A stretch of 64,000 nucleotides of DNA from Tubiluchus corallicola (Eukaryota; Priapulida; Priapulimorpha; Priapulimorphida; Tubiluchidae). The notes under the pieces were generated by a model. The model made no database searches and was not told the origin of the DNA. It saw only the letters and a program-made list of their open reading frames with translations. Position numbers and translations under genes: made by a program. Shown here piece by piece: positions 35,609 to 60,847 of the stretch. Location: NCBI GenBank assembly GCA_030141605.1, contig JAQGDQ010000002.1:1346501-1410500 (forward strand). Direction: 5' to 3'. How positions within the stretch are numbered: the stretch's first letter is position 1; every line of letters starts with the position of its first letter.

Positions 35609-38600
35609 ATGAGTGGAACAATAGAAACTAAGGTTGGTAAGCGTGGCTCACAGATGCGTGATAGCTACCATGATGATGCAGCAGCTACTCAGCGAATAAA
35701 GCAACTGCAGAGTGAGCGCATTTATCAGCAACAAAAAACTTTTACCAAATGGATGCAAAGTATTTTCAAGAAGGTGATGTATCGTTTAATTTTTTTGGTG
35801 TATTGTCACATAGTGTGCATAGGTTGAGCCTCTTAAGTTATTTTTAAGGATATGTGTACCACAGAAATAGCTTTGTATAATTAAAAATTACGAACAGCTA
35901 CTTTTACAAAGTTGTAGTCATGTTTAATAAGCTGGCTAATCAGTGATTTATCATTGGTGCAGTATTGTGCTCAGTGCAATGGTCTATGTTTGCATTTTGC
36001 TATGCAATTAGCTTGATCTTTTATTGTAGTACTCACATGCTCAACTGTATCAGGAGTTAGCAAGTTACTGCCAACAGCATAATGAGTAGTACAATCATTG
36101 TACGTGTTTAGAAAGTTCCAAGTTACCTATTTTGGCTGTAAAGGCTGAGATTGCAATTGGCAAAAAAATTAGCTCAGACATTTTCATATCCAGTTAAACA
36201 CACTTTGAGAGCATTTGTTATTCATTATTAGCAAGCATCTTTTCTTGTCTTTCAGGCTGGGATAGATTTGAGTGATCTTGACATTTTCAAAGATTTGAAT
36301 GATGGAACACTTTTATTAAGGCTGATGGAATTGATATCTGGTGAGGATGTTGGAAAACCTAATCGCGGCAAAATGAAAGTACAGAAAATAGAGAACCTGA
36401 ACAAAGTGCTTAAATACATTTCGTCAAAGGTATTGAATACTTCTGAAAGATATTTGCAATTAATGATTTTTGTGCAAAAATTGTTATGGTAACCTACCTT
36501 AACAAAAAAATGCTTTTATTATCAAGGAACAATTTTTTGTAGCTTTTGAGAACTATTATTTTTTTATACTTTCTTGAAAATGCTACTTCGCTATTTAGAA
36601 CTATTTTTTGTGGTAGTCTGTCAATTCAAAAACTGGATAATTTATTTAATATTTCTTACCTGTGTTATTTTAATTTTTGAAAAAGAGTAGTGCATTTATT
36701 ACGAGCTGCCTGGATAAATTGACTTAAAATGTTAGTTTGATTATTACTTTCCTATAGTGACATGTAAATAGTTCATTCGGTAATTTGTTCTCCTTTTTAA
36801 TTTTGTTGAAATCTCTGTATGAAAGGTAGGATATTGTACATTCAAAGTTATTAGACCAGTAGCACTCAATTTATACTTGTAGTAGATAATTCTGTAGCTA
36901 TACACACATATATGTAGTCATATACTATTCTTCAGGGTTAAAAAACGACTTTCCATATTCTGAAACCATTCTTCATTGGCAGCTGCTCAGAAAGTCTTTT
37001 GAGCATTCAAATTAATCATGATCATTCATTTAGCCTTTTGTAATCCGTTTAACCTGAGTGCATTGACGGACAAATGTAGGCACATCTCTGCTTTGATGAA
37101 TAACTATAAATCCTTCTTACATACCTTTGTATTGTATCAACAAGATAAGGCTACCGATGACATGCTTTTTAAGTACAAACTGATTAATACTGCTTGCTCA
37201 GTAAACGGTGAACACATTAAATAGGCACTCCTTCAGAATTCTATTCACAAGTTTACTGGCAAGTATGAGTATGCCCCAAATAAAGAATATTATATTCATT
37301 AATAATTGTACTGATTTAATAATAAAATTGAAATCATGTTATTACCTTTTTAAAGTAAAAAATTATTTAGTTGAATTACTTGTCATTTTATATATTTTTG
37401 TAGATTAAAATTTGTGAAAATTTGCCAGTAAAAAATGAAATACAGTACGCATCGTAATTTTAATTTACTGTTACGTTATTTATTTTACAAAATTTAGTTT
37501 ACCTACTTTTCAATGTTTATCTTTTGCTATATTTTATAAATATTTTAAACTTTCTTTTGTATAAACCATTTTTAAGTCTAATTTAAGCAGTTGTTATCAA
37601 AATACAAATTTGAGGTAACTATGTTTACGCTTTTGTTTCTTGACAATAGACGCGGTTGGAGAACATTTCTGCTGAAGATATTCTTGATGGTAATCCCACC
37701 CTTATTCTTGGCCTCATGTGGACTACAATCCTTCGGTTTGAGATTCAAGTTATTCAAGAGAATTTGGTATATTTTAGTACATTTTTAAAACAAGAACCTA
37801 TCATAGATAACTTGAACCTGTTCTTGCGAAAGGAGTTTGATTTTTCTTGTGTTCACAACAGCAACATCGATGATGATAATGCGTAACAGGACTGACCACT
37901 TAGACCCCATTCTCGAAATGGGTCCAGTTAAACATTTTAGAGAACATTTGAGAGGATTGTTGACAAGAAATGTGAAGTTTTTTTTATTTATGTAGGAAAC
38001 ATGACTAAAATGCCTTTATAGTTCATGTTGCTAGAATGTTCTTGATGAGAACTTTGTATGATGAAATTCTGATTAGTCATTTTGGTAAAGCAGTTATAAG
38101 TTTAACACAGATGGCCAGTTTCAATATTATTTTGAATGCTGTGTTGAAAAGCTGTTTTCGATTGTAACGTCTGTCACGTAGTCTTAAGTTATTAGTGTAA
38201 ATTTATTAACTAATGTAATGTGAGTTTTTTATGCTGCAGGAAAGATCGAGAGCTGAAGAAGGGGAAATGACACTGCAAGAACTCGGTGTTGATGAAGCAA
38301 CTCTAGAAGAAATGAAAGTAGGTGAAAGGAAACTTAGGTCTTTCCTTTGTCAGTAGCTTTATACATTTAAACTTGTTTAGATTTACCTGTCCTCAGGCAT
38401 TATTACATTTACTAGCTAAACCCTACAAAAGAATTTTGTGCAAAACCAACAACTATAACCATGTCCCATCTCACCATACCATACCACACCCATCACAACA
38501 TCTACACAACGCCACCCACATTATACGACTTGCACCATGCCATCAACACCATGCCACACCTACCACACCATCCATACCGCACCACATCAGCTCCCCTGCT

Positions 38601-39457
38601 GATGACGATCGTGATAATCATTATGATGACAACAACTTCGGCAGCAACAACAACAAAAACAACCTAGTGAAATCATGTAAAAACATTTTGTGCAATTTGA
38701 AACTGTGTGCAAAAGAAAAATGCTATTAGATCATTCACCAATAATCAATAATGCGCAACATTCTATACATTCTTTGTAGTCTTGGATCACTGATTCCATA
38801 ATGACGATAAAGTAGCCTAGCTTATTAACCCTTAATAGATGTAAGTTTTAAAAGCCAGCTAAACCGAAGCAATCTGTAGGCAGAATATAATGGGTGATGT
38901 CACAGAAAATGAATTGTGCCCTACTCGTTTTGCACTGAGAAAATTGCAAAAAGACCTTGGAATCGTCTTTTTGGGCTAAAGTGGAAGCATTCATAAAAAA
39001 ACCTACATCGTCACGTAGCCCAATTTCTTCTCTTTCCAAAGAGCTGTATATCTCCCACAAAGATCCCAACAGGTGCCGTACGAATATTTTTTTACACGTT
39101 GTTTCATCAATATTTCAGAAAAATTGGCTTGTTGGGTTCAGGGAAACACCCACTGCTGGACAGTTGTCCTTCCAGGAAATCTAAATCTGCCTACTATTCC
39201 CATCCGTTGAATGGGCTATCTTACTACTGCTGGTACCACTCTCCACACTCTTGTTTTCTTGAACTAAGTAGTATAAGTTTAGCAAAAACTGGTGAAAAGT
39301 GACCATTTTTGGAGGTTTTTAGCCTACTGTACCTCCTGGTGGTCTTGATTCGAAAAAATAAACCATCAGTGAGATAACACTAGACTGAGACTTCGTTTTG
39401 ATATGTAGATCACCGAAAATGGTGCAGTCCTTGGAGTTGTAGCCATATAGGTTTCCA

Positions 39458-39495
<38 letters not shown>

Positions 39496-42400
39496 GTAGT
39501 CACTTAATAAAACCACAGATAATAAAAGCAACTGCATTTTAGAACTACTTAGGCAGGACCCAAAATTACTTCCATAGAAACAATTGCTAACAAAAATTCA
39601 GATAATAAAATCAGTGCAACAAAATGTTCAATAATAGGCAACAATAGCAGAATGAAAAAATAAAATGTTTCTTTGGTAGTTTGCGCATTTTTTTATGATA
39701 CGCAGTGAAATTTTCGTCTCGTGTTCTAGATTTGCCCCTTGTTAGTCAAAATCATGCTGAAAGTTAAAGTCCTTAGTTTCAGTTATAACTGTTCTGCATA
39801 TCCAGCTGCTAATAAAGAGCATTTTAGTCTGTTGAATGAACTTGAATGACTATCGTATGCTTGAGTTATTCTGTAGACATGCTAGTGAGCTGACTGCCCC
39901 TCGTCTGTATGAGCCTGTAAGCAAAGTTTTTATATGTAACATGTTGAATTAGGTCAGGCAAACATATTAAATTTTGGATTAATCTTGCCAAATATAGGTG
40001 TTTGCAATAGACCACCACATAATAAAACCACCATTTATTAAGACCACTTATAGATGGTCCTGTAGTGGTTTTATTAAGTGGCGACTACTGCTATCCAAAT
40101 ACCAGCATAATTAATATATGCTAGATGTCAGGTTTCTAATACTCTTAAAAGAAATACAGTAGGCGTCGCTTAATAGACTCACTTTGGGACCAACGTGTTT
40201 TGACCCAGTTAACCAACTGAACCTATTAACCGATGGGTGTAGTATTACAGGTATAGAAGTATAAGTCATCACCTTACTATGCACTGCAAAGGTTTTTAAT
40301 TAATTTTAGACATGTAGTAATGCATAAATTCCTTTGTGCAGTTAAAAACTAGAAAAAATATTTTAAAATATTAATTTATATAAGTGAAATAAATTAAAAA
40401 GTATACTTTTCGAAATCACACAAGTCTGTTTTTTTGCGAAAATTACAAAAATTCCTTCAAAGTCGGCTGCTTCATTTTCTCGCGAAGAAGTTGGCCCACA
40501 AATTATAAAAACATTGGAAATCTGTTGTTGTGCATGACTAAAACAGTTCTGAATTGTCTGCTCACTTACATTGCCTGCATTTGCTGTATGATGTTTACGT
40601 AAGTCACGAGGAATACCTGCTGATTACTGTACCTGCATCTTTGACTGTTAACTGATTAAGCCTGAAAGCGTGATTTGCAACGAGAGCATCAGAAGGAAAC
40701 TGCTAGGCAAATGATTAAATGTTTAGCTTCCAGAAATTCTTTGGGTAACAGTGGACGAGCGGGTAACAGATTCAAAACAAAATCGCTATGCTAGCCTATT
40801 AGTGCATAATAAATGTACCTGCTTATAAACAAAACGGTACTTAACATGATTGTTTCTGTAGACATAGCGCACAAAAGAGAAGTAAAGATGACATAAAGTA
40901 GGAAAGGTTCTTTTGGCACATACAAATATGTTATTTTAAGCAGATGAAGGAAAAATATTGAGTCAATTATGCGGAGTTATTTGAGTCAAATACCAATAGA
41001 TTTACGTATATTTGAATAGAAGCGGCCCGTTCTAGGCGTTTTTGAGTCAATTAAGCGATTAAGTCTATTAACCGTGTATCTATTAAGCAGTGCCTACTGT
41101 AGTAGATTAACTAAAAACTAGAGAAAAGTGTTGACTAAGCTTTTAAGCAAAAGTCATTTTACAACTTTTCTGAAACAATATGCATTAGTTATGTATTTTT
41201 AATTTAATTTAGTATACAAAAATTTTAAAACTGGGGCTCTTAAGCTATTGCCACCAAAAATTTGTTTATTATATCCAGTTACTCGTATAATTTTTGTTAA
41301 GTTCTATAGTTACATTGCAAATTAATAACTCTGTTTGGTATGGCAAGTAAAGTGATTGTAGTTATTGAAATATTGTACTTGCAAACCTTTAACTAATATT
41401 TCACTGCTAGACATATTCCCCACCAAACGAAGTGTTGGTAGAGGATATAGTAGAAATTTATGTATATGCATACGTGTTGTTTGGAATGTTTTATGTTATA
41501 TCTCTGAAGCCACTGAAGCAAGTCTCACATATATATTTTACTAGTAAAAAATGTCACTTTGATTCAAATCATCATTGACTCATCATTGTTTCAAACTTAT
41601 TGTTTTGAGTTATATTTTTATGGCCAACGTAATTCCACATGATACATGGATGATACTAGTGGAAGAAAGGTTTGCTGAGGTGCACTTGACTTGACTTTGA
41701 ATCATAAAAACCATAAGGCTCTGTGTTGCATACAAAGATTTTGTTGATATTTTCATGGCCACTGAGGTCAAGCCAGTCAAGCTTTGGAACAAAGGTACCA
41801 AGCCTGTTAGGGCCAAGATTGGTATGGTACACTTGGTGTTGACTTTTATCTTAAAGATGGTAGGGCCTCGTATTATAACTTCTGTAAACATTTTAGATGA
41901 TTCACTTTTTATCATTTTTTAACATTTTTAGAAAAAATATCCAGAGCTGTTTGGGACTACTGATGCAGTCCAGCAAGCACTAGCAGAGTTGTATTTATCA
42001 ACAGTTGACCTTGACACAAAACTTGGAGATCTTCCTCCAGTTCTTACCCTCCGTGACCTTGGTGTAAAGGATGATAATCTTCCCGAGGGAGCTTCACCGC
42101 ACACAACTCTTGCTGATTTGCCTGCTGAGATGACTCTTCGCGATTTAGGATTTACTGAGCATGATATGCCTGCAGTAAAAGATAGAATACATCGTAGCTG
42201 TTTAGTTCACTGTGGATTAATTTACCAAGATGTGATGCCTAACACGTTAAACACCAGTACAACTTTAGGTGAACTTCCTCCAGATATGACATTACGTGAT
42301 CTTGGCTTAGATGAAAAACAACTAGCAAAAAATGTTTCTCCTGATATAACGTTGAAACAACTATCGTCAGAATACCAACTGAAAGATTTGGGTTTTAAAG

Positions 42401-45400
42401 ATGAGGAATTGCCAAAACTTAGGGATTCTGCAAACAGGTCTTACCAATTGAGACACGAGCCAATATATGCCAATGTTGTGCCAGTTAACATAAATACAAA
42501 AACGATGATGAAAGAACTGCCACAGGATTTGGAAGTGCGAGACTTAGGGTTGCATAAAAAGAACATCCCTAAGGAATACTCTGATACTATGCTTTTAAGA
42601 GAGCTACCCCCAGACATGACTTTAGCTGAGTTGGGTGTCCTAAAAGAAGATATTCCCAATGTTCAGAGAAGTGCTAATTTGAATTACACACTGCGCCATG
42701 CACCAGTTTATCGAAATGCTATTCCGGCAGATATTACGCAAGAGACATTAGTTAGCATGTTTCTAGAAGATATGACATTGAGTGATCTGGGAATAACAAA
42801 AGAACAACTTCCTGAAGCTGTGTCTACAGAAACAACTGTTCGAAATTTACCAAAAGGCATGAAAGTAAGAGACTTGGGGTATGATGCCAAAGACTTGCCA
42901 GTTGTCCGGGAGCATGCAAATGCTACTTATCAATTGAAGCACGGACCAGTCTACAGTAATGTTTTACCGGCAAGTCTTAGTCCTGAAACTAAAGTAACTG
43001 ATCTTCCACAAGACCTGACACTGAGAGAAGTTGGAATCAAAGAGCATCAGGTACCTGCCAAGGTTTCCCTGGACACTAATTTAGAAGAGATGCCAAATTT
43101 TATGACGTTAAAAAGCTTGGGTGTTGAAAAGGAAGACATACCTCAGATTCGAGATTGTGCTATGCATTGTCATCAAGTTAAAAATGGTCCCTTATATTGG
43201 GACTGCTTGCCAATTGAGATGACTCCTGACACGAAACTGAAAGAATTGCCACAAGACATGACTTTAAGGGATTTGCAAGTGATTGAAGTTCCTGCAGGTA
43301 TGTCTGCAGATACCATGCTGTGTGATCTTCCAGGTAATCTCACCTTACGTGACCTTGGATACACTGAAGCAGAAATACCTCTGCTGAGGCAGCACGCTAA
43401 TCAAAATTATCAACTTCGTCGTGGTCCTGTAATAGTCACTGAGTCAACTGCTGTGCATCAGTTGCCACAGAAATTAACCTTGGGAGAGATTGGCTTGTCA
43501 GAGGAGCAGATAAAGCAGCTACCAGGCAGTGTCACACAGGAAACAACTTTAAGCGAGCTGCAGCAGGACCTAACACTTGCTGATCTTGGTAAGTTGTACG
43601 TGATTTTAATTAAAAAATTCTAATTAATGTATTATTAACACTGTCATTTATTGTATTATCTTGATTTGCATATTATTTTTTGGGTCTAACTTTGTGCAGG
43701 CTTGACTGACTTACTGTGATAGCCATAGAGTTGTTGTTTATTAACAGTCATTGGGTTTATAAATTATACTACAAGCAGCTTCAATCTTCTGTTCTTGTTA
43801 CATACTAAGAAATTTCCAAACATTTTTATATACTGGTTTTTTCTTTTACTTACTCTTACTTCTGGAAACCAAAGAAAAGTTTGTGAATTACTTTTGAGCT
43901 AGTTTCTTGTGAACATTTTAGTGAGTTGTCCAAGTATAAAATTCCCCTTGTTATTATCTCCTCTTTTATGTAGTTAAACCCCATTACTGATGTACATAAT
44001 ACTTTGCCTTGAAAATTTCCCATTTTATGTTCCTGTTAAATTTTAAAAACTTGGATTCTTGCAGTTAGCCTGAAATATACATTTAGACTCACATTATCGA
44101 AGTATTGCTGTAGTCTAATTGTAGCATTAGGTAGGATAAAATGCATATTTTTGAAACACCAATTTGTTTCAGTCTGGTTGTTTAATTTATTCTATTTTAT
44201 GTATCTACTAAGTATATGTAGTTTTGTACAAATTATTTTTATTTTCTAAGTAATTTTCTAATACTAATTTCTGTAAGGCAAAACTGGGATCCTGTGCAGA
44301 CATTGCGAGTTACAGTGGTTCCTTTTTTGTCTGGCACAGTATCAACATAAAATAATATCTGTTGGTTGAGTTATTTATCTTTGCACTTTTCTAGCATAAC
44401 TTTATTTGCTTTAGACCTTTGGAATGCAAATGTAACAGTGAGTAATCTAGGGATTTATATCAGTAGTAGCATTTTATGAAAGTAAACTCGCGCTACCCTT
44501 TTGAGTACAGTAGGCTTGTTTCAAAAACAAATGGTGTAATGGAAATCTCTCATTTTGCTGCATTTTAATTGTTAGCAAAATTTGGCACTGATTGTTAATT
44601 TACTGGTGAAGAAATTGCAATTGAAATAATTAAAAAAAATTGTGTGGGACATTTAGATTAAGCATAATCTGAATTAGTGCATAAAATTTAATTCATTGGA
44701 AATAATACCCGGACATGGTAAGGTTTTTTAAGTAACAGCTTTACCTACTAAATGATTAGTGTTTGTGATAAGTGTCTGTGTGAACCTGACTCTCTGCGTG
44801 TCTCCCACACCTGCATCTCCTGTTTGCATTGGGTGCTAACTCGAGTGGAGTTAACTCTAGTTGGTAATGAGTTGGTGATCATCTTGAGGACCAAGATATA
44901 ATTACCTGCGCTCAGGAGTGCGCTGCTATGTAGGTAGTGAGTACTCAATGGGTTTGCAGACACGGCTGCAAAGCCCTACCCATGTGCTTTTGCAACAAAC
45001 GAATTTAGATGGTTCCGGGCCATCTGTCTTTCTACTCGACTGATATCACACCCATTTTTGTAGGCTTCGAGGTTTGTGACCCTCTTGGCCCAAGCCAGCT
45101 CTTTATTCCACACCGGTGCCGATGCACTCATGCTCACCAGCGAGTCTGGCGAGGCTTGCATACGACTGAGCATCTTGACCTTCATCAGAGGCACATCCTC
45201 TTCAAGACAAGAAAACCCTATTCTGCCCTTTTTCATGGACAAACTCATTTGATCCAAGAACAGGTTGAAATTTGGGGCCTTCAAAAACATAGAACAAAGT
45301 TAATGGATTTAGAGATTGAAGAGCCTTTTTGACGTTTTGTTTTTCTGTGAAAAAAGTTTTCTCTGTTTTGTATACAGGTGTCAATGAGGTTGACGGTGTA

Positions 45401-48400
45401 CAAAGAGTAAAAAGCGTTGCTAATCCCGACCCCATTGCGACGAAGTACTCCGCTGTGGAGCTTTCTGCTGATATGAAACTTTCAGAGCTGCCTGAAGGTG
45501 TTTCAAAGGAAATGCTGGGCATTGACGAGGAAACTTTGAATAAATACATTGTAAGTTGCTAAACAAGTAATACACTTGTTTAATTATAAATCAATCTATG
45601 TAAGCATGGTTTAAATGCAACTTTTATTAAACGTGGCTGTTCGAATATACTGAAAAAGATAACATTACATATATTGATTTTGTTAGTTTACTGACTTATA
45701 GGAATGTATAATTTATGAGACCAGAGCATGATGTTAGATCTAGTAAATTTTCCTTCAAGTGAGTAGGTATTGAGTTGCACAAACTAACTTGTCTTACTTT
45801 AACATTAATGTAGGCAGAGAAACCAGAAGGCAAAGAAAAACAATCTGCAAAAGAGGCCCTCTTGATGTGGTGCAAGTCTAAAACAGATGGGTATGCAGAT
45901 GTTTGAATGGCTTTCTTTACTGTAATAGTTTATTGTATTTGAAATGTATAATATTTTTGTGATACGATGCTAAATTTTGAAGGCAATGATGACGACATTG
46001 ATAGGAATTACTGGAACACTACAAAGACAAAATTTTTGGTAAATCGCTGGACATAATTAAGATTACAAAAATACAGTTTATCAAAGTAAATTTGGTACTA
46101 GTGCATTGCATGTGAAAGGATGCAGCCTGTACGTTTGCTGCTTACACATAACGCAAATGCTTAATTTTGATTTTTTATAACTGCTTAACTAGGCATGAAA
46201 ATTGTGAAGTGCAGAATTTCTCTCAAAGTTGGAATGATGGTATGGCTTTTTGCGCTCTTATTCACACTCATAGGTAAGAAATATTTGTTACTATATATTT
46301 CTGAAATTATACCAATTTCATACTTACTATATTTAATTAAAAACAAATAGTATTTTCTTGCTTAGTGTCACATGACTAATTCTGGGTTAGTATTTTTTCT
46401 ATGTAGAATAACACTAATTGACAGGACCCAATTATTATGAGGTGGTTATGTTAGACTAAAATCGGGTAATTGGTATCTCGCTATGATGGGTAATCCTTTA
46501 AAATGAGACATCGAACTAACAAACGTATCCTAGTTGTGTTTAGCTATATGTGCACCCTCCTTATTCCAGATAAATTGGCAGGGTGGTATGGCAGATGTGG
46601 TCGCCTAAAATCAGCTATGTTAAAATCCTTAAATTGTTATTTTATGGAATTCTGTGCTTTACTGTTTTGGTTTCCCTAATTTCAGGCCAGACTTAATTGA
46701 TTACGACTCGCTGGATCCAGAAGAACGGGTTAAAAACCTAAACTATGCGTTTGATATCGCAGAGCAAGAACTGGGTATCCCACAATTGCTTGACGCAGAA
46801 GGTAATTAAGGAAGCTGACACATGCAGTAAGTCCTCATTTAACGACTCCCAGTTTAGCGACGTTTATTTTAACAATGCTGAACATTAGACACCTTTTTTC
46901 ACTTCACGACACACATTTCATTTTAATGACGATTTTTTTACTTTGCTGAAAGCCAATTTGCATTTTATCAACAACTTTTTTACTAAATTTGAAGCATTAA
47001 AACAGCACATATTGCGTTATTCTGTTTTGAAAGTGCAATAGTAACATAAACAGTGCAATTATTATATATATTCTTGCTTCCCGCCTGACTAATACTATAC
47101 TAGCTGCCATTTCTATCAAGCAACCAGACTATGTAGTAAATGATGCAGTGCTCTGGAATGATAAAATTTCCAAGGTCACCTCATGCAGCGCTTGGGTTTG
47201 ACTCTGCAATGTTTATTGTTTAATGTATGCCTAGGCTTAAACCGTAATGAAAGAGAAATGCTAGACAGGTACATATTGGTAAGAAAGATAAGTGGTTTCA
47301 AGCAAGCAGAAAGAAATTAATTAGTAGAAACCATAAAGAAACTCATAAAACATTTAACTGATGTGATTTAAGCAGCATTGAGTTTTGACTCTGGAACATA
47401 CTTCAGTTCTTTTACATTATTTTCTGTGGAAGTTTTGGTTTCGTTTAACGACGTTTCCCTTAACTGCGCATTTTGCTGGAACACATTTGCATCGTTAAGT
47501 GAGGACTTACTGTACATCAGGTTGTTGTAAGTGTAGTTAGCTTTCTAGCTTTGCCTCAACAGGAGGTTGTATTCAATTTGTTTTACGATGTTAGGTGTGC
47601 ACCATGCAACATTTTTGTACAAAAAATTGTCTGGGTTGTTTATTTTGTTCATGGTAACAAACTAATACGTAGATAAGCAAAGGGTAAATAGCTAATAGCT
47701 CTTTTGCTTGATCAGTTTTAGATTATTCATATTCTGAGTTTGCCAGTTGGGTAGACCTGTTTTGTGAACTGTTAACATTACTTTATAGAGATAATAAAAT
47801 ATTGTGGATGTAAACCTAATTTGCTGAAATGCTAAAATTAATGTTCTCGTGTGATCTGTGTTGTCATTGGTGTTATAATTATTCTAGTGGTCTACCATTA
47901 TGCTTCTAGTTCAGTTGTTACTATGACATTTTTAAAGTACCTTTTAGACAATCAGTTTTTTCATCAAACTCGTTTGTCATTTAACAAACTAATTTGATCA
48001 TGTAAACACCGAAACTGACAAACTTTTAATTTGACAAATGAAGTTTGATGATATCAAACCGTCTTCAATTCATCAAACAAAAACTGACAAACTCAGACAC
48101 AACAGTCATTTGTGCACTCGTGACATCATACTGACTGTTCATTTTCGTGCATGTAGGAAGAAATTAATAACAACTAAAAACTACAGTTGGGTCTATTGTG
48201 AAATTTAAATCGGCTCTAGGGGTTCTTTCACAATGGGATTGAATGTCAGATTAACTGCATAATTTGCACAAATGTTAAAGTGCACATATCAAAACTGACT
48301 TTGAAGTACACATTTCCTTCAAATTGCTCTTATTGGATAAAATTTTTCAAAGTGATCTCGTTTTTTTCTTAATGTTGTCGTTATTAATTCAAAAGGACGG

Positions 48401-51400
48401 TATAAATATGCATCAATCAGCATTATTTGAAGCTGGCTGACACTGGGACCTGGAAGGTAGAAGCGGTAGTAATAAAAAGGAAATTCTGATTTTGCTGTAC
48501 TGTTTTCTACCAATTCAACTAACGAATTTGTGACAGTACTGTAGATGTGTTATACAGGCATTGCTTAGTTTGTGTTTAGCTTCATGAATCATGGCTTCCT
48601 TTGAGGATCTAGTCAAAAATTGCGGGTGTAACATATGTATATAATTCAAAAGTCACTCGGCACCTCAGTTTTTAGCTCTCTCAAAATCAGGCAGTAGCTC
48701 TCCCTTTCGATTCTTCGCTGTAGTCGTTTTTCATCCAAACTTTTCTAACTCTTTCCAATTTCTCGTTTTCTAATTGCACAAGCTAGCACAACAGGCAATA
48801 AAGCATCTTCACATGTTGGCACCATAAAATTTGATGTCACCTCTAAACACGTATCATTTGTTAGATTGACGGTTTTTGTTTGTCAGTTTTAGTTTGACAG
48901 TTTAAAAACTGGTCGTGTAAATGGACCATAAGTGATCTTACCTGCTACATGATTCTACTAAAGGTTGCTTTTCCTACTAATGATTTTTGAGAGTAAAAAT
49001 GGTGTTTGCTATCAAGTTCAAGTCCAAATAAATATTAACATGATATTTTATACCTCTACAATGCTGTTTAGTTTCTCATAGACCCTTTACAGATATGCCT
49101 AAACTGCTTTATGCATTAACGACAACAATAATAATAAAAAAGTAAACACTTGCAAGATTGGCTGTGCTCCCACTGCACATGCATTTGTGTGAATTTATTT
49201 GAGCTCTGTATTTATAGGCTTGGTGAGAATGTAGTTTTAGCAAATGAGTTTCAAATACAGCTTTATTTTTTCTGTTACAGATGTGGCTGTTAAAAGACCA
49301 GATGAAAAATCTATTATGACATACATTGCCTCTTATTATCATACATTTGCTAAAATGAAAGACGAAAATACAAGCAGTAAACGCATTGGCAAGGTAAATG
49401 CTGATGACTTTAGACTAGCCACTGTTTTTAATCATAATTGAGATAATTGCCATTTATCAGTAATGGTGTGTGTATCTTTGTTTATTAATTGTTGGCGATT
49501 CATTTCAAGTCTTCTTATCAGTGCAAAGTAACATCATGCAGATTATGAACAAATATAAGTTTTTTTAATGCTTGAGATAAATTTGATATGACATCTGAAA
49601 AAACGTCAATTACATTCATGGATCAAAGTTGCATGTTGAGTTATGTTTACTTTGACTAAAAAACTCAGCATCAGTATGTATCAATATAATGCAATAAGTT
49701 TATTTTAAAATGTTCTTACTTTTAAAGGAACTTGCCCAAGTCAGTATGGCTTGCGTACTGTCCGCAGGCCCATTCAAAGAGTTTCCTGTAATTTTATTCT
49801 TTTTGTGTCTTGTTTTTATTCAAAGTTGTGACTAGCACTGTTCACATGAGCAATTTGAAATTTAATGAATTTTTGTTAACAAAAACCTGTATGTTTGGCT
49901 ATAGTTGCTTTTTGGCTGTATTAATTATTAGCCTTAGGTAAAAGTTTGTTGCATTTTAGATAGTAAATTTCATGATGGACATTGACGAACAGAAGGAAAT
50001 TTATGAACAAAGTGCCGACGAGTTATTAAAATGGATTCAGAATAAAACTGCTGAGCTGAATGATCCCAGTTTACCAAATAGCATGGAAGCTACACACCAA
50101 GAACTTGCAAAATTCCACGATTATATTAGAGTTGAAAAGCCACTAAGGTTATCTGAAATCTTAGTTTATAATATTACTATTTCTTGAAAAAACTTTTTAA
50201 AAACCACATTAAGTCTGCTATTTAATATTTTTGCATGAAATGATATTATTATTGTTATTGTAGAGTATAGAGAACAGATTTAAAATTCATTCTGCACAGC
50301 TTTATAGTTTATGCCAATGGTCTTTCATTTTTACTTACATTTTGTGTACACTTACTTTCATATATGACTGCCTTTGTGACAGTCATATGCCATTTTCATG
50401 CACGTAATTGTGTACAGAACAGGTATAGGTCACTTATTGATACTAAAGTTTACCACGGCTAATATAGCTTAAGTCATTCGAAAAAATACATCACTTCAAA
50501 AATGCGAAAATTTCATCATGGTAAGTAAAGCTTAAGTTGTTTTTAACGTTTATTCTGAACTTTTTTTATTACAGAATGTTGTGCAGAACACTTCATTATC
50601 ATTAATCTTTCATTGTGCACCACTATAAAAAATTTTTATTCATTACAGATACAAGGAGAAAGGCGAACTTGAGGCACAACTGTTTGACATCCAGACAAAA
50701 CTTAATGCAGAGAGTCGTAGTTACTATCAACCGCCTGAGGGAAAACTTGTTAGTGATGTTGAGAAAGCTTGGCAGCAATTGGAGAAAGCTGAACATGCAC
50801 GTGAAGTTGCTCTGCGAGACAACCTAAGAAGGTAAGTGTCACATTTATTATTGCCAATCAGTCCCTTCATTGTGTTAGTATCACTTTATTTAATCATTGT
50901 CAATCATTTGATTTTTTCCATCATTAGGGAAGAAAAATTGGAACAGCTAGCTGAGAAATTTAATAGGAAGGCAGAGCTTAGGGAGTCATGGCTTGCTGAT
51001 CAGAACAAGATCCTTGATAACATGCCTATCGGCGAAACGGCGAAAGAAGTGGAGTTGGCAGCAAAGAGACATGTAACCATGACAACTGAAGTTCTTGCGC
51101 GGGTACGTTTACTTTGCTATGGCTTCCTGACTGCTAAGTTGTATTTGGGAAGCATGTAATGGCAGGCGTATTTGAGACTGTCCATAATCCTTCAGTAATT
51201 CACATTTTAAAAATATTAACCCTACAGTATTTATGTTGGGGACAATAGTATTGTGACACCCTATGAATATACAGAAGTGTTATATCTGACTCCTCCTTAT
51301 AGCTAGGATTACTTTCCAGTTAAGAAAATATTTTTAATGATTCCGAGAGGACAAGAAGCCTTTTCTTAAGAAATTAGTTTTTAATATTTTTTAAACCAAG

Positions 51401-54400
51401 CTGGGCATCAGTTTACTTATAATAATTATAGTTTAATTATAGACATTCTTATTTTAGTTAAGTAAAGTTTCATGAAACAAATTTAGACAATATTAGCTCC
51501 ATTCTTGCTGGCTTTCGTTTGTCCTTCTAACAAGTTTTGTCAGATTAGTATCAGTAGTAATCAATGAAATTCAATTTTTTGGCTATTTGTTTTTGATTCT
51601 GGTTCACTGACTAATAATCAATAATGGTCTGCAGATGATCTGTTGTGATTTGTTAACACATAAAGTGTCAGTCAAGGACAAATCTATTTGTTTTACACTC
51701 ATTTCTATTTTTGCTTTTTTTATTAATGTAGAAAGACAGATTTGATTTGCTGAAAAAAATGGCAGAGCATCTTGCAGAGGCAGATTACCATGAGACAACT
51801 GTAATTAAAGCAAAGTAAGTTACTTCATGAAATGTTTAGTTGTTTGTATGAATGATATTCTATTTAAAATAAACTATTTGGGATTATTTTGTTTTGATTT
51901 TGATGGCCATTGGGCTTCCTTATTATATAATTTCCTTTTGTGGCTTTCACACATGCGTCTGGTAACGAACTCTTCAGTGCCGTTAACATTTTGCAAAAAT
52001 TGTTATTCCAGAAGTAATAGCAAAACAAATTACTGTACTTGCTATGAAGATATAATTGAATGTATGTCTTTATCTTAAAAACAACTGTACGATTAGCTTG
52101 TCAGTAACAAAAAATTTGCTACAATAATTAGAAATGAGAGGTTCTGTTGTAATGGACTCGTAATGAATTAAGACAGTTAGGGCTATTAAGACAAGCAACA
52201 GTTTTTGTAGTAACTCAATATGAATATAAATATGAATAACTCAACTTAAGTATTTCTGTCTTAAAATACTCATTACTCACCTCAGTTATTGCATACTTTT
52301 AAATTTGGTTTTAGTGACAGTGTTTTTTAAGAGAGATGATGCAAAGTACAGATTTGCTTATAAGTAGCACTTAACAACAAATGCAGTCTGAAAAAACTTT
52401 ATAACTCAAGATTTTTTTTTATTATTTTGGCAATAATTGCACCCTGTGCATAAATACTGAATAAACTCTACTGTACCACTTCTGTTGGTCACTAAACCTA
52501 TGTAATATATTTGACTACTTTGCTGTATTGGTGTATGCTGTATTAAATTTACACATGAAAAATTATATGTGTGCTTGTATAGCAAAATCGTCAATAAGTC
52601 GGCAATTAAGCTTTTCTAGCTATTCATATGTCCTGATTCTCCATTTCATGAGGATCATTTTGATACCCAGCTTATCGCACGGTATTATTTCTAAGCTGAG
52701 ATAATCCACAATGAAGTTGAGGAGCACGCTACACAGTGAAAAACATAATCTTGAGAAAATCGCAGTTAAAGTTCGCCATTGTTTTTTGTCGTGTTTCTTC
52801 AAAACATTTAGCAACCGTACTAATGTTGGTTGCTACTGACTTTGCAAGAACTCGTTGAAGTTATGTTTAAATCTAGTAGATGGCTCTTCCTGATGAAGAC
52901 CTGGGCTTGGCAACGGAAAAAACCCGAAGCAAAATGACTGCTTCCACGAGCTACTATCGGCGTTTGAAAATACGAGTTTTTTACAATTGCAGTACTAGTT
53001 TCTAGACAGAAAAGTGGGCACGGGTTTAATAGATTAGATTTTTAGTATTTCTTAAAAATTTTCTTGACAATCTAGTGCTAGAATATTAAAGTCCAATATA
53101 TTTAGAGTTTGTTTTTTAAAAACCAGAAATTGGCATTTGACCACTCTGCTTTCTAGTTTGAAGCATTCTACTTTGAAGCATCATAACGTAGTTTTAACTA
53201 TGCCAACTTATGGATGGTTTTGGTTTGCAAGCACACATATGAAAAAATTGCCAGAATGCATGTTTTTATTTAGTTTATTACTTTACTTTACTTAATTAAA
53301 TTTCAGACATGAAAAGATTGCAGATGAATGGCATAGCCTGCTGCTTAGAATGAATGAAAAACAAAATAGTCTGGACAATGTAAACTCTGTCATATCACTG
53401 ATGAGGGACATTGATAGTCTGAATTCAGAAATGAAACATTTGGAGGTAATGTTTTGTTTATTCTCATTTTCTTTTCTACATTTATGTTTCTCCTGTAACT
53501 TTCAGGGCAAGTGCTAGTTTTTAAGCTGTGTGACAGGATAAGCTTTTTTGCTACTGATGAAGAATATAAGTGATGGCATCAAAAATAAGTACATAATAGG
53601 ATATCTTACAGAAATAGTCACTAAAAATGTTTCTACTGGGTTGCTGATCAGAATTTAGATTGTAACTGAGATGTTTCTCCTTAATTTTTATAGCAAAATT
53701 AGTTTACAAATTAAAGCAGTCAGTATTTAATTTAGTCGTTTTAAAAACTTCTTGTCACATTTCTTGCCAGGAAGCCATTATTTATAGTTCTGAAGTTTAC
53801 TTTCAACCAGTGCTTTCCAGTGCGTGTTTCTCTACTATTTTAAATTGCTGAAAATACAAATGCTGGCTTTGTATAATTGCTTTTTTTGTCACTGAAACTT
53901 TTGGAAAAAATAAATGACAACATGTGAAACAGTTTTAAAGATTCTTCTTAGTTAACACAGCAAACAGTGAGGGAACTAATTGTGATATAAACCCTTTTAT
54001 AACTGTGATTTATCAGAAATGTTTGTCATTGCAGCCTGGTGTAGACTCTAACGTAATGGGCAATGAACTTATTGCTGCTGATCATTTAGTTGAGAAACAT
54101 GCCCTCCTTGACAGCGAGGTCAAATCAGCCGGAGAAAAAGTGAACATCTTAATTGAAAAAGCTGAAAAATGGACACAAGAGAATCCTGCTCTAAAGAAGG
54201 AAATTGAAAGAATGGCAGACAATTATGCACTGTATGTTTTTTTTTACTAAATTGGCTTATCTTTCTATGTCATTTGAAGACTGACAAAATGGAAAAATTT
54301 CTTTAACATCAATTTCAAAATTTTCTGATTTGCAGACTACTGTAAATTTTGCTTTGACACTTCAAGAGTTTGTCTATTGACACTACTACTAGTGCTGCTT

Positions 54401-57400
54401 TATAATATAAATTAATAATACACTTTTCCCTAGTTCTTCTTAAAAAAATAATTATGCAATTTCTCTGTTATATATGATAACAGGTTAAATGCAAAAAGTG
54501 AGAAAAGGAAAGCTGATTTGGCAGAGGCATATGCTTATTACAAGCTTGTGGATGATGCGGAGCAAGAGGAAGCTTGGTTAGCTGAAAAACAGACTTGGTT
54601 GAAGCAAGCTCCGGAACCCAGCCGAGATATCTATGCCTTGTACAGGCAGCTACAGGCACACGATGTATGTGATGCAATAATTTTATTTCTTTTAATTTTT
54701 AGTTTATTTTTGGTGTAATCTAGAGTTTAATCTATACTATTTACATCTATAATATAAGCGTATAGGTAGAGTTCGTAATAAAAGAGTATGAAGAGGCATG
54801 TGAAAGGGAAAGGCTAGATCGATAGATTGAATATTTTAATTTGCATTGCATTCTAGAGTGGCATTTATGTAGCATCCGGATGCGGATGTAGATGCGTTTT
54901 TCACCTGCGGAATAGAGTGCGGAAAAAACAATAGGAACAGCTGCAGAAAAAGAATAACACAAATACGGGCTGCATAAATGGGTGCATTGAAAACAATAGA
55001 AACCGATTTTATCTATTCCGTGCCTCCCAAAACGCATCCGCATCCAGATACTACATAAACACTTCTTTAGCATGTATAATATGTTCTAAAATGCTTCACA
55101 ATAAAAAATGCAAAGAGTAAAGACTACAAAAAAAATAAGAAACACCACTACAAAAATTCAATATGTAACAAGATCGTACACAGGCACTAAAATCAGATTT
55201 TCTAAAATATTTCATAATAAAGATCCAAAAAAATAAAAACACACATTTTAAAATTCAATTTATAATAAAATCAGACTAAACTCGCGTGTTAATTGAAAAT
55301 AAGATATTGACAATATCGACTAGCCTAGGAATCTGACTAAACAGCTAAGTTTTAAATTTTGATTTAAAACTGCTGAGGTTACTGCACATGCTAAATTCAC
55401 GAGGAAGAGCATTCCAGTAAGTAAGAACATAGTATCTAAATGATTGCTTTTGTACCACAGATAATGTTGAAAGAGGTTGATACAGAAATGGACTACTGTT
55501 ATGTCTTAAACCATGAGAGTTGGGTTGTGTTGGTAGACAATGTCATGTATGTGTAATTTGGAGTCTGATTGTTAAGTATTTATAAACGATAACCAGAAAT
55601 TTAAGTTGTATTCTAAATTTCACAGCTAGCCAATGTAAATGATGTAGAACTGGTGTGTTGTGGTCGCACATACCTGTACATGATATTTAATGTACAGCTG
55701 AGTTTTATACATGTTGAAGTTTTAAAATATTGTATTCCGGCAAATAACAGATGTTGCTGAAAAAACTGTTACAGTAGTCTAAATGGGAATGCACCAGGGC
55801 GTGGACAAGAATGATAACTGAATCACGACTAAGAAATCCTCTAATCTTTCCCAAATTATAGTTACAAAATTGGCCTTATTGCAAACTTCAATGATATTTT
55901 TGTTGAAACAGGATGTATGTATATGAACTAATTTGTTTCTTGACTACTTTGTCAATGTTGGCTAGAATAGAATGACTACACTTTGCCTTGTTTTTTATTT
56001 TTAGGCAGTGGAGGCTGAGATGCAAGCACATGCTCCAGTAAGTAACACTATCTGTGTGATGGGTTCACGAATGAATCAAACCAGTTATCCGCTCCGTGCA
56101 GCCGAAGTCAACAAACACATGAACATCTTGCAGGAGGAATGGCACAAACTTAAATCGTCTGTTGCTGCTAGGAAGATTAAGTTAGAAGATGCGCTGGAAT
56201 CTGCCCAGGTAAATTATTGATAATGTCAATCTTTAGGTCACAGGCTAAATTCACCTGTCCTGTTGAATAATGGCTAAATTGACCATTATAGTTATCAGTT
56301 TATTTGCCAACAATTGAATGTGCATGTTTTTTATTCATTTATTTTTACCCATTTTAGGTATGTGAAAATTGGGGCAGACTCGTTTTCCTAGAAAAGTTTT
56401 TTGCCAGAAAAATTTTTCCCCCAACAAAAAAAATTCACAGAAAACTTTTTTTACTTCCCAAAAGAAAATTTCCCAAAAAAGATATTTCCCAGAATTGCCA
56501 GTTCCTAGAATTTTTTTTTCCCTGAATCGTCATGTCATGGAACAGAAAATTCACAGAAAATGTAATAAATCTTTTTAGATAATGTGCAAGAAAAAATATT
56601 TTATTTTAACTACGTGTATTGATTAATAGGGAACATATAATAATAAAAATGTTCAGATCTTTAGGCAAGAAATTAGATTTGTAACATCAGAACTATTAGG
56701 TAGTGAATAGTGTTGATCTTTGCATATACCCAAGAATGAGTGATCATGGTGTGCCATTCGCTACCAAAGTTAAGCAATGCCAAGCCTTGCAACTGATTTG
56801 TTGGTAGACCGCTTGTAAATATCAGTCTTGGGCAGTTATTTTTATTGTGATTCCAAATTATTTCATTAATTTCATTGTTTAGAGAAGATGAACATGCATT
56901 CGAATGTGACTGTGACTTCTCAGTCAGCCCAGTATTTCATCTCAGAGGATTATCTTGATAATGAACTAGGATCTGGTCCTGCCATAAAAGAACTCCTAAA
57001 AAATCTTCTGATGGAGCTTAATTTATTGGGCAAATGTTGACCCCAAGTCGTTAACAAATTTGTGTGGTTTGCAAAGCCTTGGTGTTTTCATTTTTTATAA
57101 TTGTTAGTTGTAAAATATATTTCAAATCCTAGGAAAATCAGTTTGGAGTGATTACATGCAGCAAATGATACAATGCCAATTACTGTCAGAAATCAATGTT
57201 ATCTTAAAACCAAGTTTAAATTGTAGCAACAAGTTTCAAAACAAAATATTTTTTTCAAAACATAATTAAAAAACAAGGTTGATAGGCATTATTTAAAGTG
57301 CTGTAGATAACCAAAAGATAGCAAAAAGAGAAAGAATTAAAGGTATAGAGTAAGGGGAAGGGGAGTGAGATGGGGAAGGAGAGAGAATATGAGGAAGAGA

Positions 57401-60400
57401 GAGCTAGAGGAGGAAGAGGAGGAGGAGGAGAGACTGAAAGAGAGAGAGAGGGGGGAAGGAGCAAGGGGGAGGATAAGAAGGTAAAAGAAGGGAAGAGAGT
57501 GAAGAGGGAGGAACAGACAGAGCCGTGATTTTTTTGTCGAAAAATCTTTCTAGGAAATATGTTTTTCTGTGAAATGAGTTTTCTAGGAAAAATATTTTCT
57601 GGGAAAAAATTTTCTGAAAGTTATTTTTCTGCAAAATGGTTTTTCTGAAGGCTTCTGAGAACAAACCTAAACCATGAAACTTTTAGCTGCAGCACTGAAG
57701 CACTTCTATGAGAATTAAGATAGTTGTCATGGTTTGCACTGTGCAACTAACCAACTTATTTTGTTTAGAGCAATTTCAAAATCTGACAAACATAGCATCA
57801 AGTCATACTGTTCCTATTCACAGTAGTTGAATTGTGGCCTAAAAGTGTGCCACTTTATTTTTTGCACCATCTTAGTAAGTTTCCTTTAACAGTATACGTT
57901 AAGTTTTTAAGTAGGCTACAAATTTGCTGCGAAAACGTTTTTGTGTTGAAAATTCTCAGTTAGTCTTCTCAATGATGGTCTTTTAACAAAACATTAATAT
58001 TCAAAATGTGGTTGCATTGAAGCTCTTAAAAAGGGTTTTCTTACTTAGCGAAAAGCATTGTCTTTGTTGTTACTTAAAAATATGGTAATTGTACTCTTTT
58101 AGCAGAAAACAGTAAAGTCTAACAATGTTAATTCACTACAAGTTTCATTAAGGAATTGATAACAACCTTTACTTTTTCAGTATTACGCTGATGCTGAAGA
58201 AGCAACTCAGTGGATAAAGGAGAGAATGCCATTAGCAGCAAGTGATGATTTTGGACGAGATGAAGCATCAGCACAAGTAGCTGCCCCATTTAATTTTGTT
58301 ACTTTTTTTATTGACAAGTGATGATTTGTGCTTTAAAAATAAACAACATCTTAATAAGGCATTTGGGCTAGTGTATATAACCAGTTGTTCGAAGGCATTC
58401 TGCCAACAAGAAAGTTTTCTCCTACTTTAGTAATGTCTTATTGTTGTGACTGTACTGATTTAGCTGCAGTATAGTAATACTTACCAGAACCATCGTACAG
58501 TGACGAAGTACATTTGCTAGAATTATTTGATTTACGATTTTGTATGGTTAATCAGAAAGGTTAATTAAACAACTGGTCTAAGTGGCCTAATTGGCTTGAC
58601 TTCTTGTGTCAAACTTTCATGGAAAATCAGCCTTAGCAAACTTCTCACTGAAAAAAGGCTCCTAACACCTTCATTAACTGCTGTATGCTTGCAGAATGTT
58701 TTAGTTCTGCTTTAGCAAGATGAACTTTCGCTTTGCTGACGTAATCATTATTCTTGAGTTGTTTAACTTTATATGATTTTGTTACTTGAACATATTGTAA
58801 AAGTAAATTGTTTGTCCGTAGGCATTACTACAAAAGCACAAGATTCTTGAAGAGGAGATTCGTGCTTATGATGCCGACATACAACGCCTCAACAACTATG
58901 CTACTCTCATGACACAAGATGCTCAACAACACAAGGCACGTAGAATAAATTTTATTAAGAATTGTAATTAGAGAATAATTGTAAGTGGTTTATAACATGA
59001 CGATTGTTTTGGGATTGTCATCAGAAATTTCATGTTTTACATGTATAACGCATAAATAACAGATTAACAGTGTGGTGGCAAAGTTTGAAGCTGCTAAAAG
59101 ATTCCTGCTTATATGAAAGCTAAGATTCCAAGGCCTGTGTCATCAGAAAAGTTAAATTCTTATCTAAGTTACAATATATCTCCTATTTTTAGAATAAGTT
59201 CTTACATAAATACCTATCTTCTTAACAGATGTCATTGGCATGTAAAAATTCGTAATTTTTGCAAAGTTTCCTGCACATCTATTTGACTTTTTTGGTAAAG
59301 AGTTAAAATGATAACTCACATACTAAGATCATTACTTGAGGCTATTTTGTGTAACAATATTCTTGTAATAAGTGATTCATAACTAAAAAATTTTTGTGAT
59401 TAAGATCAGCTTAAATGAGTTTTCAAAAACTTTATAAGATATTGTTAGCTGCTACCACTGATCAGTAATTTATAATAGAAAATTTCGTTCAAATTGTAAA
59501 TAACAATTATGTTTTTAATGTCTGCAGATTCCGCCTGAATCAGCTGTGAAGAGATTACAGGAAGAAGAAGGAACATCTGCTGGTGGGGAAGAAGAGGAAG
59601 ATGTGGAATATCACCTGGTAAAGATAGTTTTTGGCAATCAACACATTCTTAGCGTGAAAAATTTGTGAATTTTTTGTTAACAGCTTTGGCTTTCTTTTTG
59701 CCAGAAATTTTGCCACAAAATTAAAAATATAAATTTACAATATAGTAAATCTTCACTTGGGAACACCTCATTTAGTGACAATAAATTTTGACATTTATGA
59801 GATTTTGGCATTTTTTAACAAGTTTAAAAACAATAATCTGTGCTAAGCTGCAAGCATTTAAGGCACTCGAATGTTTGTTTTATGCCAGTCAGATATTATT
59901 GATTTTTGGTACTGGAATACATTTCTATACACTTACATTTTTGCTTCTGGAATGCACATATTAAAGATTTGCTTAACCCACTGCATTTTGTGTGAACACA
60001 TTGGTATAGTTATTTAAGGCCTTACTGTAATTGGATCTAGTTTATTATATGTGTTTTAAAGTATATTTACCAATTTGCATATCTCAAAGTTCTGAACATC
60101 AGATATTAGTTCTGGATAAAAAAACATTGTTATCCACAGATTTCACTTAGCTAGTAGCTATCATAATAGAAAATAAAGATTATGGTTTGGCGAGAGGAAT
60201 AGCTGAATGATTCATTATGTGTGCTTGTCGACAGAAATAAGCAGTGCTAGACCTGGTTAGTAAATGGACCGGTGTCTGGCGGAAATTGCTAATGAGAGTT
60301 TTTATCTGCTATCCTGTGCCTCGACCATGTCTCTTGTTTAGGTGAAAATGCCAACCAAATGGGTTAGTGTTTACGCATCCGACATGACCATGAGACATTT

Positions 60401-60847
60401 CTGCTAGTTCAATGTTTCGTCTCAGAGGATTATGACAATGAGATGGGTTCTAGTGTCGTCACAAGAATCTGTATTAATTAAGTTCTGCTACTAAGTGCTA
60501 TACCCTAACTAGCAAAGTTGCTTACAAGTAAAGATGAGCTTTACAAGATTCTACTTTTCTTACTAACATAAATAACTATGCAAACAAAGTTAGTGCAAAA
60601 AATCTGTTTTCAGTAAGTGTTATCACAGCTGTAGGCTCTGTGCTTTTAAACAACATCCCTAGATTAGCTTAGCTTCATGAAACCTAAGTATTTTTTTGCA
60701 TTTACAATATAGGTGCCAGTCGAAAGTGAAGAAGAAATAGAAATGGTAATGCAGGTGATGGAAGAATTTGTAGAACTGAAAATCTCTCCTCGAGTGAAGA
60801 TGAGATACCCGTACAGCGGACATGGTGTTGATGTCAAGAAAGGAGAG
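35609..60847 (+). CDS. SPTBN5: beta-heavy spectrin with a large insert between CH1 and CH2, 3' end missing
   Basis: Twenty-two exons join in frame (1512 residues so far): 35609-35773, 36256-36429, 37650-37766, 38240-38317, 41932-43588, 45378-45550, 45814-45890, 46193-46273, 46686-46801, 49281-49393, 49960-50147, 50649-50831, 50928-51102, 51732-51814, 53307-53445, 54035-54231, 54484-54664, 56005-56208, 58181-58276, 58822-58935, 59528-59617, 60713-60847. Residues 44-150 are CH1 ([41 protein letters not shown]). Residues 153-788 are the novel repeat insert. CH2 is about 795-910 ([29 protein letters not shown]). Spectrin repeats follow from about 924. An SH3 domain begins near 1497 ([18 protein letters not shown]) after the start of repeat 5, its place in beta-heavy spectrins such as Drosophila karst. 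The family crosslinks actin under membranes with alpha-spectrin. The intron after 58935 seems to use a GC donor. Confidence 0.92.
38450..38600. repeat. cryptic CCAT/CCAC simple-sequence tract
   Basis: About 150 bases of irregular ACC, CCAT and CCAC units in the intron after spectrin exon 4. The open frames read through it are repeat artefacts. Confidence 0.6.
39462..39492. repeat. (AT)n microsatellite
   Basis: About 15 AT units that directly abut the left end of the MITE at 39494. Confidence 0.93.
39494..40090. mobile_element. pogo/Tigger-like MITE 1
   Basis: Inverted ends: CAGTAGTCACTTAATAAAAC on the left and the complement of CAGTAGTCGCCACTTAATAA on the right, then AACCAC on both. About 597 bp, non-coding. 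The CAGTAG start recalls pogo/Tigger elements. Near the right end several AATAAAACCACCA blocks are repeated in both senses. In the intron before the large spectrin exon. Confidence 0.65.
40157..41099. mobile_element. pogo/Tigger-like MITE 2
   Basis: Inverted ends CAGTAGGCGTCGCTTAATAG and the complement of CAGTAGGCACTGCTTAATAG, flanked by TA on each side. About 943 bp, no transposase frame recognised. It starts 66 bp after MITE 1 and has a related end. Confidence 0.7.
42004..43588 (+). repeat. coding tandem array of 81-residue units in spectrin exon 5
   Basis: Residues 203-607 are five units of exactly 81 codons (243 bp): 42004-42246, 42247-42489, 42490-42732, 42733-42975 and 42976-43218. A sixth of 76 codons (43219-43446) and a partial seventh (43447-43588) follow, running on into 45378-45550. 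Each unit has two half-repeats of the form [16 protein letters not shown] with a hydrophobic residue next and LP about six residues on, then a segment like ANxxYQLRHGPVYxNVLP. Related single motifs are in the exon before ([11 protein letters not shown]) and after ([10 protein letters not shown]). I do not recognise this repeat. Unit-to-unit identity is moderate, so the array is old and under selection to stay open. The exon is about ten times longer than its neighbours. Confidence 0.93.
44740..45320. other. GC-richer unexplained segment in a spectrin intron
   Basis: Base composition is clearly less AT-rich than the flanks. The minus strand is open for 105 codons at 45290-44976, with no domain I recognise. 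It ends just before the exon at 45378. It may be a fragment of a mobile element or processed gene. Confidence 0.35.
46825..47512. mobile_element. pogo/Tigger-like MITE 3
   Basis: Inverted ends CAGTAAGTCCTCATTTAACG and the complement of CAGTAAGTCCTCACTTAACG, about 688 bp apart. The right end is followed by TA. No transposase frame. In the intron after spectrin exon 9, starting 24 bp after the splice donor. Ends resemble those of the two MITEs upstream. Confidence 0.72.
47930..48930. mobile_element. possible MITE with CAAACTGACAAA ends
   Basis: Left flank CATGTAAACACCGAAACTGA and, in opposite sense, right flank CATTTACACGACCAGTTTTT, both followed by runs of AAACTGACAAAC. Ends are ragged and no target duplication was identified. 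Confidence 0.35.
54857..55063. mobile_element. short MITE with GGATGCGGATG ends
   Basis: About 207 bp with inverted ends: TTTATGTAGCATCCGGATGC on the left and the complement of TTTATGTAGTATCTGGATGC on the right. Flanks TTCTAG and TTCTTTAG may be a decayed target duplication. In the intron after spectrin exon 17. Confidence 0.6.
55330..55900 (-). mobile_element. L2/CR1-clade LINE 3' fragment
   Basis: The minus strand encodes [20 protein letters not shown] followed by DYCNS, the conserved C-terminal RT block of L2/CR1 LINEs. Later pieces include NNQTPNY and [20 protein letters not shown], again in the expected order. Stops and frameshifts break it. Inserted antisense in the spectrin intron, next to the short MITE. 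Confidence 0.75.
56380..56570. repeat. degenerate CCAGAAAAATTTTCCC stutter repeat, left arm
   Basis: Many 15-20 bp variants of a near-palindromic unit such as TTTTCCTAGAAAA or CCAGAAAAATTTTTCCC. The same units appear in opposite sense at 57530-57665. The two arms may be long degenerate ends of one mobile element enclosing 56571-57529. Confidence 0.5.
56722..57005 (+). mobile_element. 5S-rRNA-derived SINE (SINE3-like), copy A
   Basis: The head aligns by eye along the length of 5S rRNA: CATATACCC, an AAAGTTAAGCAATGCC block at the 5S internal promoter A box, then TGGTAGACCGCTTGTAAATA, which matches the conserved 5S region GGGAGACCGCCTGGGAATA. A non-rRNA body follows, with TCTCAGAGGATTATCTTGAT, shared with copy B at 60200-60480. 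Rejected as a working 5S gene because it is diverged and fused to the body. In the intron after spectrin exon 18. Confidence 0.68.
57350..57520 (+). repeat. polypurine (GA/GGA)n tract
   Basis: About 170 bases that are almost all G and A on the plus strand, with GGAGGA and GAGAGA runs and few pyrimidines. Such tracts can form triplex DNA. It lies between the 5S-SINE and the right stutter arm. Confidence 0.85.
57530..57665. repeat. degenerate stutter repeat, right arm
   Basis: Inverted relative of 56380-56570, with units such as TTTTCTAGGAAAAATATTTT and TTTTCTGGGAAAAAATTTTC. Confidence 0.5.
60200..60480 (+). mobile_element. 5S-rRNA-derived SINE, copy B
   Basis: Contains AATAAGCAGTGCTAGACC then TGGTTAGTAAATGG, close to 5S rRNA AAGCAGGGTCGGGCCTGGTTAGTACTTGG. 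The 3' body has GTTTCGTCTCAGAGGATTAT and GACAATGAGATGGG, matching copy A (56722-57005). In the intron before spectrin exon 22. Confidence 0.7.

Follow-up and report, generated by a model that had tools for sequence, protein, structure and literature searches.

A putative coding cassette of 81-residue repeats between the CH domains of a beta-heavy spectrin gene of the priapulid Tubiluchus corallicola

In Drosophila, the beta-heavy spectrin karst combines CH domains, 30 spectrin repeats, an SH3 domain, and a PH domain (PMC11361641), and its CH1–CH2 region was modelled as residues 1–278 (PMC10328500). CH2 has been described as a steric inhibitor of CH1 in a closed actin-binding head that is in equilibrium with an open one, opening being associated with a higher affinity (PMC5676748, PMC7688639). 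Here, we analyze a stretch of 64,000 nucleotides (nt) from the priapulid Tubiluchus corallicola (contig JAQGDQ010000002.1, positions 1,346,501 to 1,410,500; hereafter the window, from whose first letter feature positions are counted). The gene that runs from 35609 onward is a beta-heavy spectrin, with CH1, CH2, about 30 repeats, SH3, and a C-terminal PH domain like karst; in contrast to karst, 636 residues lie between its CH domains as the gene is read. The span modelled for the fly CH1 and CH2, residues 1–278, is too short to accommodate an insert of this kind.

The CH1–CH2 linkers of nesprins and calmin are longer than that of spectrin by tens of residues. A natural linker change proposed to alter regulation has been described for the actin-binding domain of the C. 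elegans filamin FLN-2, which lacks the linker and has a third CH domain (PMC3143143), whereas the beta-heavy spectrin considered here has an enlarged linker. The genome also encodes two ordinary beta-spectrins (L019 and L020, contigs C2279 and C2252) with the same tandem CH family, but in both of them (2/2) the CH1 and CH2 exons are separated by a single short intron and the linker is an ordinary one; by eye, this intron follows ILRFQ and lies 8 residues before the beta-heavy one. The CH exons of L019 and L020 look very similar by eye, suggesting a duplication. Among the spectrin matches listed for the genome, which are lower bounds and for which SH3 and PH were not checked, there is no obvious second beta-heavy gene. 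In the open-access literature, which leaves out most subscription journals, we found no earlier report of such an insert between CH1 and CH2.

The gene and the exons between its CH domains

The initial annotation had named the gene a beta-heavy spectrin, and the joint presence of SH3, PH, and about 30 repeats supports this. A Pfam search of the gene model places two PF00307 matches at the N-terminus, CH1 at 57.9 bits and CH2 at 108.5 bits. A profile grown from one repeat of the rod yields 31 spectrin-repeat matches, of which 29 exceed 60 residues, the count being made on a home-made gene model with one stop and some doubtful exons. The SH3 domain lies early in the rod, after the fifth repeat match (residue 1718); one of five SH3-type models exceeds its own cut-off (SH3_2, 24.2 bits against 21.8), and SH3_9 (25.7 bits, cut-off 30) and SH3_1 (18.4 bits, cut-off 22.9) fall below theirs. 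The C-terminal PH domain is matched by PH_9 at 75.3 bits. A short CH1–CH2 linker, usual for beta-heavy spectrins but not defining, is absent from the gene as read and present if the exons described below are skipped.

The gene extends past the window, and the contig DNA was read on to position 1,500,000 of the contig; the gene reaches at least to ~1.499 Mb, close to the end of the DNA covered. The model was computed from codon scores and splice-site matrices set by hand, using dynamic programming. It is rough, and the last exon of CH1 and one exon of CH2, both missed automatically, were set by eye.

Between the end of CH1 (37766) and the first CH2 exon (45814), three exons of 78, 1657, and 173 nt add up to 1908 nt, i.e., 636 residues without a stop. 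The insert of about 640 residues that had been placed exactly in the CH1–CH2 linker is thus found there, and the three pairs of exon coordinates given for it are all correct (Table 1). All three exons have AG/GT borders and compatible phases (0-0, 0-1, and 1-0), and the 1657-nt exon contains no stops in the coding frame, whereas the remaining plus-strand frames contain 52 and 48. Of the initial statement on the junctions, the part that all of them keep the frame holds, whereas good splice sites are not found everywhere: the donor of the last CH1 exon (TTG/gtatat) is weak, its score of -1.8 with the hand-set matrix lying under the fifth percentile (-1.5) of gene-model donors. This donor would serve forms with and without the insert alike and therefore does not decide between them.

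Synonymous codon usage does not differ between the insert and the rest of the gene model (chi2 28.3, df 41, p 0.93), a comparison that is not fully independent, since training of the codon scores that were applied to the rest of the gene had started from the insert exons. The in-frame ATG in exon 38240 and the stop that follows directly after VSC, when reading continues beyond 45550, would suit a separate same-strand gene nested in the CH1–CH2 intron, starting in the former exon and ending just past exon 45378–45550. However, both outer borders of the block carry splice sites phase-matched to the CH1 and CH2 exons, and the codon usage is like that of the host gene, so that we regard a nested gene as improbable. 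The view that this is one gene and not two joined is upheld by the repeat family shared by the three exons (see below), by the codon usage, and by the canonical product of skipping them. A foreign origin of the insert was also considered; codon usage provides no indication of one.

Insert exons 1 and 2 are separated by an intron that contains two adjoining stretches with terminal inverted repeats: 39480–40101, with 37-nt arms that are 76% complementary, perhaps a DNA transposon, and 40155–41101, with 28-nt arms that are 82% complementary.

The 81-residue repeat array

The insert consists of an 81-residue unit repeated six to seven times, and its regularity exceeds what the initial annotation had described. 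Five gapless units are followed by a sixth with a two-residue deletion and by a partial seventh, whose match begins a few residues before R6 ends and reaches 2 nt beyond the splice site. In a self-comparison of the 636 residues, the spacings 81, 162, and 243 score 0.88, 0.64, and 0.41, and the next best scores 0.02; the best ungapped match at spacing 81 aligns residues 49–397 with 130–478. The five further units are 30–42% identical to the first one, and each unit contains the motif TxLxxLPxxxTLxxLG twice, 29 residues apart.

The mean pairwise identity of R1–R5 is 36%, vs 6.8% for shuffled residues (maximum of 2000 shuffles 10.6%). The proportion of synonymous differences (pS, 0.68–0.84) exceeds that of nonsynonymous ones (pN, 0.37–0.48) in 10 of 10 pairs, and divergence is highest at third codon positions (0.505, 0.330, and 0.673 for the first, second, and third). 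Synonymous sites are near saturation, and yet 36% amino-acid identity has been kept. We conclude that the array is under selection at the protein level.

A profile built from six units and run over all six frames of 153.5 kb has seven matches in the middle exon, and its best matches elsewhere fall on the two remaining insert exons (E 0.14 and 0.25), the next being at E 11. Either value is weak singly, and the argument is that both fall on predicted exons; by this reasoning, the three exons share one repeat family. The source is a draft genome (343.5 Mb in 2344 contigs), in which an assembly artefact might be suspected; we consider one highly improbable, given that the window lies on a single 3.1 Mb contig, that the phases match, that one repeat family spans the three exons, and that the array is selected as protein.

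The array is acidic, with a net charge of about -40. Two AlphaFold2 models, of middling confidence (predicted local distance difference test, pLDDT, 77.2 and 69.6; predicted template modelling score, pTM, 0.48 and 0.38) and built with 6 and 2 rows as input, drawn from the array itself, have nearly the same order of elements in R4, R5, and R6, with low-confidence joints. In the predicted unit, short turns (the motif TxLxxLPxxxTLxxLG, twice) would make up a compact core, to which a helix of 19 residues and a flexible joint of ~15 residues would be added.

Searches for relatives of the insert gave little beyond the array. Against the whole genome of the species, the array exon has one match, which is itself, and a single repeat has seven, all seven within the array (best candidates scored only). 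No PDB sequence is matched by the array exon; the repeat profile has three weak matches there, to decorin and biglycan (E 0.011 to 0.076). The predicted repeat structure has no convincing match among PDB and viral folds, no relative of the insert was found in IMG/VR or NCBIfam, and in a set with one genome per bacterial and archaeal species none of 12 pattern matches was confirmed as a relative. The window contains no Rfam match at gathering scores. Searches for COX1 and innexin had no match either, the latter being run without a positive control. In Pfam, the array exon yields three families at E values up to 10, namely a partial match to PF25137 over the cut-off and DUF1127 and HTH_WhiA below it; the spectrin repeat PF00435 is not among them, and the two short insert exons match no Pfam family up to E 1. 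As Pfam, PDB, and the remainder of the genome offered nothing convincing, the repeat unit may be an undescribed domain family.

Two resemblances were followed and rejected. Firstly, the leucine-rich repeats of decorin and biglycan show a weak local likeness to the profile (E 0.011 for the whole chain), and the leucine spacing in TLRDLGL of the insert resembles LxxLxL. The consensus of leucine-rich repeats, LxxLxLxxN, has a conserved Asn, but Asn occupies that position in none of the ten half-units of R1–R5 (columns 21 and 50), and no fold match was found. Secondly, the C-terminal domain of Fe-containing alcohol dehydrogenases (PF25137) matches the whole array exon at 31.8 bits (cut-off 27), but the match covers only profile positions 84–174 of 194, and of single repeats two of six match, the best at E 0.033. 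The shared motif is presumably TLRELGvkEEDLP. Being partial and failing on single repeats, the match is taken as a chance or convergent helix motif.

Inclusion, skipping, and the state of the actin-binding head

Insert exons 2 and 3 hold the frame only if kept or skipped jointly (phases 0-1 and 1-0), and exon 1 is free in this respect. The block is thus a putative frame-neutral cassette flanked by phase-0 introns, for which inclusion and skipping are both possible. Skipping the three exons in frame could give a standard actin-binding head: CH1 joined straight to the CH2 exon is a 234-residue domain that matches the spectrin beta chain 8iah (residues 2–234, E 7.6e-75, 254.5 bits), with a linker three residues longer than in 8iah.

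Such an arrangement, i.e., phase-0 introns around the whole block, a full canonical domain as the skip product, and two exons that keep the frame only if skipped together, would be expected if the main product had the standard CH1–linker–CH2 structure and the three exons were used in some tissue or stage only. However, phase 0-0 exons are common in the gene model (45 of 100), and symmetry alone is weak evidence for alternative splicing. With the hand-set matrices, the insert acceptors score 4.2, 1.7, and 4.2, and its donors (1.4, 2.9, and 1.2) are near or above the gene-model median of 1.3. The first insert acceptor is both closer to the CH1 donor than the CH2 acceptor and stronger (4.2 vs 1.1), and its position and score favor inclusion. 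An optional minor cassette is, in our view, possible but doubtful.

The reading that we favor, as the probable one though with restrained confidence, is that the three exons are a real coding cassette in the CH1–CH2 linker, included by default, which loosens the inhibition of CH1 by CH2 and adds a flexible arm. With the cassette, the link between CH1 and CH2 would comprise ~656 residues vs ~20 (counted by eye). The longer link would be expected to weaken the brake of CH2 on CH1, and the acidic array could act as a flexible arm with which partners could be reached or docked. If the cassette is left out, the product would be a standard closed actin-binding domain. The sequence shows the layout of the insert, its coding constraint, the relatedness of the three exons, their frame neutrality, and a canonical skip product, whereas inclusion in the mRNA, loosened inhibition, and an arm or docking role are inferred. 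The elastic or adhesive role and the tuning of actin binding put forward in the initial annotation are hypothetical.

Several points weigh against this reading. The CH1–CH2 pair is otherwise canonical, as the score of the joined form demonstrates. A leucine is kept at the position of human beta-III L253 (alignment to 8iah), a residue located at the CH1–CH2 interface in a published homology model, which suggests that CH1 and CH2 can still close and that the head may stay unopened by the insert. Inclusion of the cassette might also be confined to a minor isoform. The partial dependence of the codon comparison and the middling confidence of the structure models, built on the array's own rows, count on the same side.

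Since the interface leucine is kept, closure of the head may still occur, and the array would then form a side arm: CH1 and CH2 would pair as usual, and the array would loop out as a docking platform with actin affinity unchanged. CH1, CH2, and both linker ends are canonical when joined, and the low-confidence joints and low pTM of the models would allow a loop with both ends close to each other. On the other hand, with a linker about 33 times longer, the effective CH2 concentration that CH1 experiences should, by a polymer argument, be lower, and no partner is known. We consider a side arm that leaves the domains coupled rather unlikely. The readings overlap, since uncoupling of the domains could, for example, also come from a minor cassette, and their probabilities need not sum to one.

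A more far-reaching version of the favored reading is put forward as a tentative suggestion: the beta-heavy head would be split by an undescribed 81-residue domain array, and splicing of the cassette would switch between a closed state, inhibited by CH2, and an open state with a long arm that reaches a second partner. The restraint of CH1 by CH2 is central to the biology of spectrin, actinin, and filamin and likewise to disease mutations, among them SPTBN2 L253P. If the cassette is made into protein, a head held to be one compact unit would be split or would bear a large side arm, and a natural protein that has a 636-residue array between CH1 and CH2, and that a single splicing event would return to the canonical form, would provide a ready test of how linker length affects the coupling of the two domains.

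Features of the window

Table 1. Exons, repeat units, and domains of the beta-heavy spectrin gene in the window
Feature	Position	Strand	Basis
First coding exon, CH1 start (MSGTIETK...FKK)	35609..35773	+	By eye, CH match; donor possibly 6 nt later (automatic model: 35779)
CH1 exon 2, phase 0-0	36256..36429	+	Gene model, CH match
CH1 exon 3, phase 0-0, weak donor gtatat	37650..37766	+	By eye; missed by automatic model
Insert exon 1 (putative cassette), 26 residues, phase 0-0	38240..38317	+	Repeat profile E 0.25, splice scores
Insert exon 2 (putative cassette), 552 residues, repeat array, phase 0-1	41932..43588	+	Open frame, self-comparison, profile
81-residue repeat R1	42013..42255	+	Profile 122.9 bits
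81-residue repeat R2	42256..42498	+	Profile 126.7 bits
81-residue repeat R3	42499..42741	+	Profile 121.1 bits
81-residue repeat R4	42742..42984	+	Profile 123.2 bits
81-residue repeat R5	42985..43227	+	Profile 129.9 bits
Repeat R6, two-residue deletion	43228..43458	+	Profile 110.2 bits, profile positions 1-78
Partial repeat R7	43444..43588	+	Profile 32.7 bits, positions 1-46; single-repeat search E 0.009
Insert exon 3 (putative cassette), degenerate repeat, 58 codons including the split one, phase 1-0	45378..45550	+	Profile E 0.14
First CH2 exon, phase 0-2	45814..45890	+	Gene model, CH match
CH2 exon 2	46193..46273	+	By eye; missed by automatic model
CH2 exon 3	46686..46801	+	Gene model, CH match
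CH2 end	49281..49393	+	Gene model, CH match
Start of spectrin-repeat rod; SH3, further repeats, and PH beyond the window	49960..64000	+	Gene model, repeat profile

Three open frames elsewhere in the window were noted by eye. Upstream of the spectrin gene, a frame of 226 residues (31747–32427, plus strand) is peroxiredoxin-like; another one (29312–29701) resembles a fragment of a LINE reverse transcriptase, and a third (2550–2822) resembles an exon of a sushi (CCP) domain.

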